This document shows positions 28,024 through 30,878 of a stretch of DNA of 55,026 nucleotides, one piece after another. The stretch comes from Comamonadaceae bacterium (GTDB taxonomy: Bacteria; Pseudomonadota; Gammaproteobacteria; Burkholderiales; Burkholderiaceae_C), in contig JAIXRH010000104.1 in the NCBI GenBank assembly GCA_027485285.1, positions 1 through 55,026 on the forward strand. Reading direction: 5' to 3'. Position numbers and translations under genes: made by a program. The notes under the pieces were generated by a model. The model had not been told where the DNA came from. It did not search any database and was given only the letters and a program-made list of their open reading frames with translations. The stretch's first letter is position 1, and the number at the start of each line of letters is the position of its first letter.

Positions 28024-29483
28024 TGATTTCACGCGAACCCACCCTTGAGCGATTGGCCGTTGCCCGTCAACTGTTGTTAGAGCCTTTTGGTCTAGACGAG
28101 ACCGACTTGGCCAAAACCTTGGCCGAGATCAAAGCGCACAAAGTGGACGAAGCCGATTTGTACTTTCAATACACACGCTCAGAGGGCTGGAGCTTGGAAG
28201 AGGGCATTGTCAAAACAGGCTCATTCAGCATCGACCAAGGTGTGGGCGTGCGAGCGGTGAGCGGTGAAAAAACTGCTTTTGCGTATTCCGACGATATTTC
28301 CAAAGCCTCTTTGATGGATGCTGCACGGACCGTGCGCACCATTGGCGCTGCGGCCAAAGGTGGCCGCGTCAAAGTGGCCACGCGCAAGGTGGCCTCCAGC
28401 CGTTCTTTGTATGGTGGCTTAGACCCCATCGCCTCCCTCAACAGCACTGAAAAGGTCGAGCTGTTGGGCCGTATTGAACACATGGCCCGCGCCAAAGACC
28501 CCCGCGTGATTCAAGTCATGGCCGGTTTGGCCAGCGAATACGACGTGGTGATGGTGGTGCGTGCCGATGGCACCTTGGCCGCCGATGTGCGCCCCTTGGT
28601 GCGCCTGAGCGTGACCGTGATTGCTGAGCAAAATGGCCGCCGTGAAGTGGGCTCTGCGGGCGGCGGTGGCCGCTTTGGCTTAGGTCACTTTGACGATGTG
28701 CTGGCGCAAAGCTATGTGGATGAAGCCGTGCAATGCGCCCTCACCAACCTCGATGCACGTCCAGCCCCTGCAGGCGAAATGAGCGTGGTGTTGGGCGCGG
28801 GCTGGCCGGGCATCTTGTTGCACGAAGCGATTGGCCACGGCTTAGAGGGCGACTTCAACCGCAAAGGTTCAAGCGCGTTCAGCGGCCGCATTGGCCAACG
28901 TGTGGCGGCCAAAGGCGTCACGGTGCTCGACGATGGCACCCTTCCTGACCGCCGTGGTTCACTCAATGTGGACGACGAAGGCAACCCCAGCCAAAGCAAT
29001 GTGCTGATTGAAGATGGCATTTTGAAGGGCTACATCCAAGACAACATGAACGCCCGTCTGATGGGCGTCAAGCCCACAGGCAATGGCCGTCGCGAAAGCT
29101 ATGCCCATGTGCCCATGCCGCGCATGACCAACACCTACATGTTGGGTGGCGACAAATCGCCTGAAGAAATTGTGTCCAGCCTCAAAAAGGGTTTGTACGC
29201 CGTGAATTTTGGTGGCGGCCAAGTGGACATCACCTCGGGTAAGTTTGTGTTCTCCACTTCGCTGGCGTATTGGGTGGAAAACGGCAAGATTCAATACCCT
29301 GTCAAAGGCGCGACCTTGGTGGGCAATGGCCCCGATGCACTGACGCGCGTTAGCTTGATTGGCAACGACATGAAACTCGACCCTGGCGTGGGCACCTGCG
29401 GCAAAGAAGGCCAGAGTGTGCCGGTGGGCGTGGGTCAGCCGACCTTGCGCATTGATGGCTTGACGGTGGGTGGTACGGCGTAA
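28023..29483 (+). CDS. tldD: metalloprotease TldD
   Basis: TldD works with TldE/PmbA as a zinc protease that trims unfolded or modified peptides (microcin maturation, CcdA turnover in E. coli). 486 aa; the metal-binding HEAIGHGLEGDF motif, the N-terminal YFQYTRSEGWSLEEGIVKTGSF and the C-terminal VGTCGKEGQSVPVGVGQPTLRI are characteristic. The partner pmbA is not in this window. It is followed by 113 bp with a palindrome CCAGCGCTGG near 29495 but no clear terminator. Confidence 0.94.
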   Translation: MISREPTLERLAVARQLLLEPFGLDETDLAKTLAEIKAHKVDEADLYFQYTRSEGWSLEEGIVKTGSFSIDQGVGVRAVSGEKTAFAYSDDISKASLMDAARTVRTIGAAAKGGRVKVATRKVASSRSLYGGLDPIASLNSTEKVELLGRIEHMARAKDPRVIQVMAGLASEYDVVMVVRADGTLAADVRPLVRLSVTVIAEQNGRREVGSAGGGGRFGLGHFDDVLAQSYVDEAVQCALTNLDARPAPAGEMSVVLGAGWPGILLHEAIGHGLEGDFNRKGSSAFSGRIGQRVAAKGVTVLDDGTLPDRRGSLNVDDEGNPSQSNVLIEDGILKGYIQDNMNARLMGVKPTGNGRRESYAHVPMPRMTNTYMLGGDKSPEEIVSSLKKGLYAVNFGGGQVDITSGKFVFSTSLAYWVENGKIQYPVKGATLVGNGPDALTRVSLIGNDMKLDPGVGTCGKEGQSVPVGVGQPTLRIDGLTVGGTA

Positions 29484-29596
29484 ATGACATGGGCGTGCCA
29501 GCGCTGGTCACAGCGCGAGTCGCAGCGTTGATGCCTCTTTTAAACCTCAGCGCTTTGTCAGAAAACTGCCACATACCTTGTGATACATTCCAATCC

Positions 29597-29665
29597 ATGA
29601 GTGCAAACCGTTTTTATTTTGCTGACTTCTTTATCTCACGCCCCCATGGCGGTCGAGAGATCTGA
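29597..29665 (+). CDS. Phe/Tyr-rich leader peptide of the aroG attenuator
   Basis: A 22-codon ORF starting MSANRFYFADFFIS; 5 of residues 6-12 are Phe or Tyr (TTT TAT TTT GCT GAC TTC TTT). It ends at TGA 29663-29665, followed by a terminator before aroG, the layout of amino-acid attenuators such as pheA. TACATT (29584-29589) ends 7 nt before its ATG and could be the -10 box. There is no Shine-Dalgarno, so initiation may be leaderless. The long aroG-frame ORF from 29601 passes through here in another frame and is not coding. Confidence 0.7.
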   Translation: MSANRFYFADFFISRPHGGREI

Positions 29666-29702
29666 ACGTAGCCCAAACGCTCTGAACTCCAAACCAACCG
29701 CC
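29633..29702 (+). promoter_or_regulatory. aroG attenuator: alternative RNA pairings
   Basis: Two exclusive pairings can be drawn. Protector hairpin: ATCTC (29633-29637) with GAGAT (29657-29661) and CGCC (29639-29642) with GGCG (29648-29651). Antiterminator: GGCGGT (29648-29653) with ACCGCC (29697-29702), which takes the left arm of the terminator. A ribosome stalled on the Phe/Tyr codons (29612-29632) would mask the left side of the protector, free GGCGGT, and allow readthrough into aroG when charged tRNA-Phe or tRNA-Tyr is scarce. Pairings were drawn by eye. Confidence 0.6.
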
Positions 29703-29725
29703 GGACCTCCCGGCGGTTTTTTTTT
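29696..29725 (+). terminator. rho-independent terminator (attenuator) before aroG
   Basis: AACCGCCGG (29696-29704), loop ACCTC, and CCGGCGGTT (29710-29718) form a 9-bp stem; nine consecutive T run from 29717 to 29725. It lies 43 bp upstream of the aroG start and 30 bp after the leader-peptide stop, where an attenuator is expected. Confidence 0.85.
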
Positions 29726-29768
29726 GCCAAATCCTTTCATCATTTTTTTCAAACTTCAGGACGAGACC

Positions 29769-30878
29769 ATGAAAACGAACACCCTTTATTCAAGCTACGT
29801 TGAAAACACCAGTCAAACCGACGATCAACGTATCAAGGACATCACCGTGCTACCTCCTCCTGAACATTTGATTCGCTTCTTCCCCATTCAGGGGACGCCC
29901 GTGGAGAAGCTGATCACCCAGACCCGTCAAACCATCCATCGCATCATGCTCGGCAAAGACGACCGCCTGTTGGTGGTGGTGGGTCCCTGCTCTATCCACG
30001 ACCCTGCTGCCGCAATCGATTACGCGCGTCGCTTGCAACCGCTGCGCGAAAAGTACGCCGATACTTTAGAAATCGTGATGCGCGTGTATTTCGAGAAGCC
30101 TCGCACCACCGTGGGCTGGAAGGGCTTGATCAACGACCCGTACTTGGACGAGAGCTTTCGCATTGACGAAGGTCTGCGCATTGCGCGCCAGCTGCTGATC
30201 GAGATCAACCGGCTGGGTTTGCCCGCAGGCAGCGAGTTTTTAGACGCCATCAGCCCGCAATACATTGGTGATCTGATTTCGTGGGGCGCGATTGGTGCGC
30301 GCACGACCGAGAGCCAAGTGCACCGCGAGTTGGCTTCGGGCATTTCTGCACCCATCGGCTTTAAGAACGGGACCGACGGCAACATCAAAATCGCCACCGA
30401 CGCCATCCAAGCCGCTGCTGGCGCACACCACTTCTTGTCGATTCACAAAAATGGCCAAGTGGCGATTGTGCAAACCAAGGGCAACAAGGACTGCCACGTC
30501 ATTCTGCGAGGCGGCAAGGCCCCCAATTACGATGCAGCCAGCGTGACGGCAGCCTGCGCAGAGTTGGCCAAAGCCAAATTGCCAGCCTCCTTGATGGTGG
30601 ATTGCAGCCACGCCAACAGCAGCAAGCAGCACGAGCGTCAGCTGGTGGTGGCCAAAGACATTGCAGATCAAATCAGCGGTGGTTCACACCAGGTGTTTGG
30701 CGTGATGATTGAAAGTCATATTCTGGGTGGTGCGCAGAAGTTCACGCCTGGTAAGGATGATGTGTCTCAGCTGGAATACGGCAAGAGCATCACCGATGCA
30801 TGTTTGGATTGGAACGACTCGGTGGCTTCGTTGGACGTGTTGTCTCAGGCTGTGGTGGCGCGTCGTCAGCGTTCCTGA
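29769..30878 (+). CDS. aroG: 3-deoxy-7-phosphoheptulonate synthase, type I (AroG/F/H family)
   Basis: First enzyme of the shikimate pathway: condenses PEP and erythrose-4-phosphate. 369 aa, close to E. coli AroG in its motifs: GPCSIHDPAAAIDYA, VMRVYFEKPRTTVGWKGLINDP, SWGAIGARTTESQVHRELASG, FKNGTDGNIKIA, VILRGGKAPNYD and DCSHANSSKQ. Which amino acid inhibits it cannot be told by eye, but the Phe/Tyr leader peptide suggests a Phe- or Tyr-linked isozyme. ATG 29769 follows AGGACGAG. No terminator is visible after it. Confidence 0.95.
   Translation: MKTNTLYSSYVENTSQTDDQRIKDITVLPPPEHLIRFFPIQGTPVEKLITQTRQTIHRIMLGKDDRLLVVVGPCSIHDPAAAIDYARRLQPLREKYADTLEIVMRVYFEKPRTTVGWKGLINDPYLDESFRIDEGLRIARQLLIEINRLGLPAGSEFLDAISPQYIGDLISWGAIGARTTESQVHRELASGISAPIGFKNGTDGNIKIATDAIQAAAGAHHFLSIHKNGQVAIVQTKGNKDCHVILRGGKAPNYDAASVTAACAELAKAKLPASLMVDCSHANSSKQHERQLVVAKDIADQISGGSHQVFGVMIESHILGGAQKFTPGKDDVSQLEYGKSITDACLDWNDSVASLDVLSQAVVARRQRS

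Follow-up and report, generated by a model that had tools for sequence, protein, structure and literature searches.

The aroG gene of the window, the whole 55,026-nt stretch of Comamonadaceae DNA analysed here, is very likely controlled by a ribosome-mediated transcription attenuator. As listed in Table 1, a leader ORF with a cluster of Phe and Tyr codons and an intrinsic terminator precede aroG. The parts and their arrangement are conserved among relatives, and both alternative helices covary. The first-pass annotation had read the region as a classical attenuator in front of aroG, and conservation and covariation support that reading.

Parts of the aroG leader in the window

Table 1. Features of the aroG leader region (positions in the window).
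Feature	Position	Strand	Basis
Predicted extended −10 element of the leader promoter, TGATACATT; expected RNA start about 29595-29597	29581..29589	+	conservation in 38/40 family-like loci
Leader ORF, 22 codons + TGA, MSANRFYFADFFISRPHGGREI	29597..29665	+	translation; homologous ORFs in relatives
Control codons Phe6 Tyr7 Phe8 (Ala9 Asp10) Phe11 Phe12	29612..29632	+	aromatic cluster in the same place in relatives
Segment 1, ATCTCACGCC; partner is segment 2 with the GAGAGAT after it	29633..29642	+	leader fold; helix counted on alignment A1
Segment 2, TGGCGGT then CGAGAGAT; antiterminator 5′ strand, within the leader ORF end	29647..29661	+	
Segment 3, AACCGCCGG; terminator 5′ arm, also antiterminator 3′ strand	29696..29704	+	
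Intrinsic terminator, stem 9 bp, loop 5, T9	29696..29725	+	
aroG, class I DAHP synthase, 369 aa, regulated gene	29769..30878	+	

The 22-codon ORF with five Phe/Tyr codons in seven, claimed by the first-pass annotation, was correct to the base (codons 6-12 of the ORF). The perfect terminator was found where claimed, its arms AACCGCCGG and CCGGCGGTT (29710-29718) forming 9 pairs and its T9 occupying 29717-29725. The GGCGGT (29648-29653) had been proposed to pair either with an upstream CGCC or with ACCGCC of the terminator; both partners are present, and ACCGCC (29697-29702) is its exact complement. The upstream neighbour tldD lies on the same strand and ends at 29483, so that the terminator stands 212 nt beyond it. 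AGGA is found a few bases 5′ of the aroG start.

We infer where transcription starts, ribosome stalling, dependence on charged tRNA and the direction in which the system responds, as follows. The RNA would begin on the leader AUG or slightly 5′ of it, with the leader being translated during synthesis. When charged tRNA-Phe or tRNA-Tyr is scarce, the ribosome would stall in codons 6-12 and leave segment 2 free to pair with the ACCGCC of the terminator 5′ arm, and the polymerase would continue into aroG. When charged tRNA is abundant, the ribosome would reach the stop codon (29663) and cover segment 2, and the terminator would form and stop transcription after about 130 nt. If the leader is left untranslated, the upstream pairing would sequester segment 2 and the terminator would form too. 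The spacing in the window, 15 nt between the last control codon and GGCGGT and 9 nt between GGCGGT and the stop codon, would fit common ribosome footprints. In relatives the distance from segment 2 to the stop codon ranges from 1 to 28 nt, and coverage of segment 2 by a terminating ribosome is doubtful in those with the longest distances.

A GTG-started frame of 425 aa (29601-30878) runs free of stops through the terminator into aroG. A translational fusion from this GTG was considered, and the frame was taken as probably due to chance.

The aroG product scored 534.6 bits against the NCBIfam DAHP synthase model TIGR00034 (cut-off 173.2) and was the sole DAHP synthase found by protein search in the 98%-complete genome. 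A second one was rejected: the type II family is absent from the genome, and PF00793 otherwise matches one place only, a 285-aa ORF flanked by ORFs resembling pyrG and eno and taken, by its sequence and neighbours, to be a probable kdsA.

Conservation of the leader peptide and its predicted promoter

The best 80 of at least 592 matches to aroG in genome contigs were kept as named loci, 79 of them with enough upstream sequence. Upstream regions were scanned for ORFs of 12-45 aa with an ATG start and at least six Phe, Tyr or Trp within 11 residues. Among these best matches such an ORF was found upstream of aroG in 60/79 relatives and in 4/1988 control windows, the controls being other windows of the same loci, taken all over and on both strands and therefore mostly not intergenic. 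With at least five aromatic residues the counts from the same best 80 of at least 592 matches were 64/79 and 15/1988. By eye, a leader was recognised in 66 of the 80 loci (the best of at least 592 matches), counting weak or damaged ones such as L021, L061 and L080. Fourteen loci were left out of the by-eye set: L020, with 25 bases upstream, and those without a convincing leader (L031, L032, L034, L037, L040, L047, L049, L052, L053, L060, L070, L075 and L077). A terminator between the leader ORF and aroG was detected by script in 65/67 leaders. Leader ORF, aromatic codons and terminator are thus all conserved among relatives, as the alignment of upstream regions proposed by the first-pass annotation was meant to reveal; loss of any of these would have spoken against its reading.

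Typical leaders near the window read FYFAYFWFS followed by GGRE. The leader is MSAKFYFYFFWHLKPLADREG in Burkholderia and Caballeronia, FFTGYFYFSNSNPKAVE in Rugamonas and FYFWYYGFPMPLAEEG in Xanthomonas. Its length and ends vary among relatives. Across 67 leaders the aromatic codons were kept (TTT 193, TTC 96, TAC 73, TAT 54 and TGG 58) while their order and third base vary. The reading frame of GGCGG differs by group, being GGC GGT (Gly-Gly) in some and CTG GCG GAT (Leu-Ala-Asp) in others, which indicates that the peptide end varies and the RNA is kept. In four loci (L018, L024, L026 and L027) the leader ends GGCGG-A-TGA-GAGG, and the GAGAGG motif is kept across the stop codon with its GAG straddling it. 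Since the GAGAG after GGCGG is kept beyond the ORF stop, some of what is conserved is RNA rather than peptide sequence. The attenuator of Candidatus Burkholderia humilis (L061) looks decayed: some 190 bases 5′ of aroG, a shifted leader frame continues through the terminator.

The amino acids read by the leader differ between the window and its relatives. Trp occurs in 36 of 40 family-like leaders (the window and the 39 of L002-L046 that have a leader) and is absent from the window, L005, L016 and L042. Within the window's genus it was found in only 5 of 29 loci (L090-L118). At codon 10, 24 of the same 29 loci have Tyr, and the window, L103 and L107 have Asp. Given the Trp in 36/40 family-like leaders, the ancestral leader probably sensed Phe, Tyr and Trp together, and the window's lineage probably narrowed to Phe and Tyr with Trp mostly lost. 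Each codon type may matter for sensing. The name Phe/Tyr attenuator, given by the first-pass annotation, therefore holds for the window's lineage and not for the family. The mixed Phe/Tyr/Trp leader of most relatives is the most unusual trait of the element.

As for the promoter, TGNTANNNT, mostly TGCTACATT, ends 6, 7 or 8 nt ahead of the leader AUG in 38/40 family-like loci; the window has TGATACATT, seven bases ahead of this codon. Transcription beginning 6-8 nt past such a −10 element would place the first base of the RNA on the AUG. None of GGAG, GAGG and AGGA was found in front of the leader AUG in the 40 family-like loci, and the translated mRNA is probably leaderless. A simple promoter scan returned no promoter, so the extended −10 element is a prediction from conservation. 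By eye, a TG-N-TATC box was seen near the AUG in the Xanthomonas-like loci L081 and L176-L178. Seven Oxalobacteraceae-like loci have TATAGT instead, 25-39 nt before the AUG, and the −10 scan found no box in most Burkholderia-like loci. A transcription start downstream of the terminator would have counted against the attenuator; the conserved element just 5′ of the leader AUG, with its predicted start, points the other way.

Covariation and folding of the alternative helices

Alignment A1 comprised 65 sequences including the window, with 64 distinct rows; L061, whose leader frame is broken, and L080 were excluded since the script found no terminator in them. On the 64 distinct rows 97.0% of cells were paired in the terminator helix and 88.9% in the antiterminator helix, both above all slid controls. 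Against column shuffles, most measures for these two helices were rarely or never reached; the measure of further pair types was reached by 161/500 shuffles for the terminator, 13/500 for the antiterminator and 87/500 for the helix between segments 1 and 2 (helix 1:2).

Column 151 of the alignment, mostly G, A or U, pairs with column 167 in the terminator and with column 76 in the antiterminator. With column 167 the 64 rows give GC 42, AU 18 and UA 2, and with column 76 CG 32, UA 15, UG 5 and AU 2, both sides being changed in 17/64 rows. Column 151 thus is a case of three-way covariation, and an attenuator would be expected to show just this, one base covarying with two partners that exclude each other. 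The same triple was read in 71 further loci (74 less L153, L158 and L165, where the pattern found no terminator; L092 and L154 among them are identical to rows of A1). Its forms were C-G-C 39, T-A-T 10, T-G-C 6, A-G-C 6, C-A-T 4, G-C-G 3 and three single others, and the pattern C-G-C / T-A-T / G-C-G was broken beyond the T-G-C wobble in 13/71, with segment 2 taken here, as in the terminator script and the isolated folds, as the best or first candidate, a choice biased towards pairing. A variant clade in the window's genus that model R1 (below) missed (L133, L134 and L136) has GGGCGGCT opposite AGCCGCCC.

The pairing of segments 2 and 3 (at least four of five core pairs) formed in 63/63 isolated folds, subject to the same biased choice of segment 2; 63 of the 65 sequences were folded since the pattern found no segment 2 in L004 and L021. 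The sequence between the antiterminator strands helps modestly, with a mean z of −0.93 against shuffled interiors, below 0 in 49/63 and not in 14. The analysis thus finds an antiterminator that excludes the terminator and covaries with it. In helix 1:2, 81.4% of cells of A1 were paired, six pairs showed two-sided changes, and the covariation score was 0.212 against 0.131 for shuffled alignments, a score biased in its favour since the helix was chosen by inspection and counted afterwards. RNAalifold on A1 proposed the terminator alone, with no further conserved domain and helix 1:2 absent. In the window this helix is irregular, and segment 2 carries a T in place of the C of most relatives.

The first-pass annotation had suggested folding the region and comparing competing structures. 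Such structures were found, GGCGGT being hidden upstream, or paired in the antiterminator, or left aside by the terminator according to the position of the ribosome. The minimum-energy fold of the whole leader (−36.7 kcal/mol, z −2.74, equalled by 1/200 shuffles) holds the terminator and an upstream structure hiding GGCGGT, with CGCC (29639-29642) opposite GGCG. With segment 2 free and the RNA extended up to the terminator 5′ arm, the window folds as antiterminator at −16.1 kcal/mol. With a ribosome set on the stop codon the terminator alone is left, at −17.1 kcal/mol with flanks, and with the ribosome absent GGCGG is sequestered upstream at −19.6 kcal/mol. When folds were forced on the complete transcript, the terminator gave −27.0 and the antiterminator −18.9 kcal/mol. 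As the terminator is the stabler of the two there, read-through must depend on the order of folding during synthesis and not on equilibrium.

Other explanations of the region were weighed against the attenuator. The hairpin might be just the terminator of tldD, with the aromatic ORF arising by chance and the aroG promoter lying further downstream. The order of the genes fits this, with tldD upstream on the same strand and a hairpin that is a good terminator alone. A pattern scan of 29000-30500 found four terminator-like sites against a shuffle mean of 1.9, so that the hairpin by itself would mean little, although it has the longest stem of the four. This reading is nevertheless highly improbable. 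The hairpin stands 212 nt beyond tldD, a segment of the leader ORF covaries with the 5′ arm of the hairpin, the ORF is conserved far above the controls (60/79 against 4/1988, from the best 80 of at least 592 matches), and a −10-like element precedes it in 38/40 loci. Loci that lack the leader (L137, L138, L031, L032, L034 and L070) have lost the hairpin too. Chance and a tldD terminator were rejected on the control scan and the covariation.

That the RNA binds a protein or metabolite in the manner of a riboswitch, with an incidental ORF, we regard as extremely unlikely. The GAGAG kept past the ORF stop in L018, L024, L026 and L027 would suit it, but that strand is accounted for by helix 1:2 and by pairing inside the antiterminator. 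The absence of an extra domain from the RNAalifold proposal, the lack of an Rfam match at its cut-offs and the keeping of aromatic codons in varying order and third base across 67 leaders all argue against it. It is also very unlikely that the short terminated RNA or its peptide acts in trans as well, like rnTrpL/peTrpL of Sinorhizobium meliloti: the predicted product of about 130 nt resembles the one there in being a small leaderless mRNA (PMC7298713, in the part of the text available), but the length and ends of the peptide differ between relatives.

Relation to known attenuators and distribution

The aroG attenuator is real, strongly conserved and probably leaderless, and its type of mechanism is already known, also for DAHP synthase. 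The source study of the aroR leader of the aroF operon in Corynebacterium glutamicum is said to be that of Neshat et al. 2014. Attenuation of this DAHP synthase gene has been described; according to the available portions of the sources, Phe limitation raises expression at aroR and Tyr availability is without effect (PMC11802643, PMC4046766). As there, a leader peptide with Phe-Tyr-Phe precedes the DAHP synthase gene in the window. The aroR leader, however, comes from another phylum and has only Phe-Tyr-Phe, whereas 36/40 of the window's family-like relatives have Phe, Tyr and Trp, the two being likened by description. In Acholeplasma, the candidate attenuator uORFC-13-1 was proposed before aroF from 24 sequences of one genus and environmental samples, and the accessible text also mentions a hypothesis of attenuation for E. 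coli aroF (PMC8632094). The candidate resembles the window in its predicted Phe leader ORF and terminator before a DAHP synthase gene; compared by description, it differs in being a computational candidate with a ribosome binding site.

Leaders of this kind in enterobacteria bear the names pheL and pheM. Enterobacterial pheA (with pheL) and pheST share the Phe-rich leader and transcription attenuation, as far as the excerpted source goes (PMC11802643), but their target genes differ from aroG. The attenuator RNA of S. meliloti trpL/rnTrpL starts with the AUG of its leader ORF, as predicted here, again by the accessible part of the source (PMC7298713); its codons are Trp and its target is trpE(G), and its 5′ end is stated there and only predicted for the window. 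Attenuators have also been predicted for aroA-tyrA in Vibrio and for the gyrA-serC-pheA-tyrA cluster in Bordetella parapertussis (PMC1173090, partial text). In E. coli, TyrR and TrpR control the genes for DAHP synthase, by the available text of two papers (PMC5343134, PMC11802643). In the open literature, from which subscription papers are largely missing and where sources were available in part, no description of this leader in Burkholderiales or Xanthomonadales was found, and an earlier one is possible. The statement of the first-pass annotation that it knew of no such attenuator for a beta-proteobacterial DAHP synthase agrees with this, the precedents found in those partial sources lying outside the beta-proteobacteria. 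Rfam gave 0 matches at its gathering cut-offs for the window and ten of the 80 relatives, and an E-value search of 29480-29780 gave chance-level scores, the best of 17.4 bits being far below the cut-off of RF01859, presumably the Rfam Phe leader.

In Burkholderiales and Xanthomonas-like bacteria the leaderless mixed Phe/Tyr/Trp leader peptide could work as an OR-gate, an idea to which we give about even weight for and against. A shortage of any one of the three charged tRNAs would open aroG, so that RNA would do the work for which E. coli has three DAHP synthases and two repressors, and changes in the codon run, as in the window's lineage with Trp mostly lost, would retune the amino acid sensed. 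The attenuator names a probable control of the entry step of aromatic synthesis across a large family, where models drawn from E. coli TyrR and TrpR may not apply, and its RNA, unmatched in Rfam, now has a covariance model. It opens to testing whether one leader sums three amino acid signals and how prevalent leaderless leaders are in attenuators generally. In transcriptome studies such a leader, once terminated, could pass for a small RNA.

Distribution was searched with a covariance model (R1) built from A1. Its matches, which thus include relatives of its own sequences, were found at E ≤ 0.01 in 50/61 genomes of the window's genus (26/26 good genomes) and 290/299 of its family (261/267 good genomes), and at E ≤ 0.001 in 49/200 of its order, five of these in the same family. 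In the class they were rare (10/369, three of the ten in the same family); the remaining seven class loci divide into four that precede aroG and three (E 2e-4 to 8e-4) with no aroG behind them. The element was found in a few Xanthomonas-like genomes. In all 66 best-scoring loci of genus, family and order (L090-L126 and L147-L175) aroG lies directly 3′ of the match, starting from 18 bases before to 99 after the match end.

Twenty-one genus and family genomes were missed or weakly matched, 14 of them with an aroG match. Among the 12 of the genus, four have a variant leader region (L133-L136), one contig begins past the leader and keeps the terminator (L131), three contigs lack the aroG start and four assemblies show no aroG. 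Of the nine in the family, three showed no aroG and two only part of it. Two genomes of one genus of the family (G260 and G333, L137 and L138) have aroG and have lost the leader. There is no leader in the short gap after tldD in G152 (L140), and in G225 (L142) it is apparently absent upstream of aroG. In three Polynucleobacter loci (L031, L032 and L034) and one bin (L070), aroG follows shortly after tldD without leader or terminator, and a TAAAAT-like box lies near the aroG start. The attenuator was apparently lost in these.

The window's own genome gave 12 matches at E ≤ 10, one of them strong; a second copy was rejected on the four weaker matches that were read (C74, C42, C98 and C52), all without an aromatic leader. 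Five second matches elsewhere, in four genomes, were read. Three were strong (two in G222 and one in G039) and precede aroG, and the weak ones in G277 and G048 were dismissed as attenuators, having neither aroG nor an aromatic leader. A plasmid search with 29581-29730 gave no match. In another gammaproteobacterial genome (L180, bases 1451-1720), a short ORF with YYF and a terminator lie in front of an MFS transporter-like gene, and an arm of this terminator could pair with the end of the ORF; judged by eye, this is possibly another aromatic attenuator.
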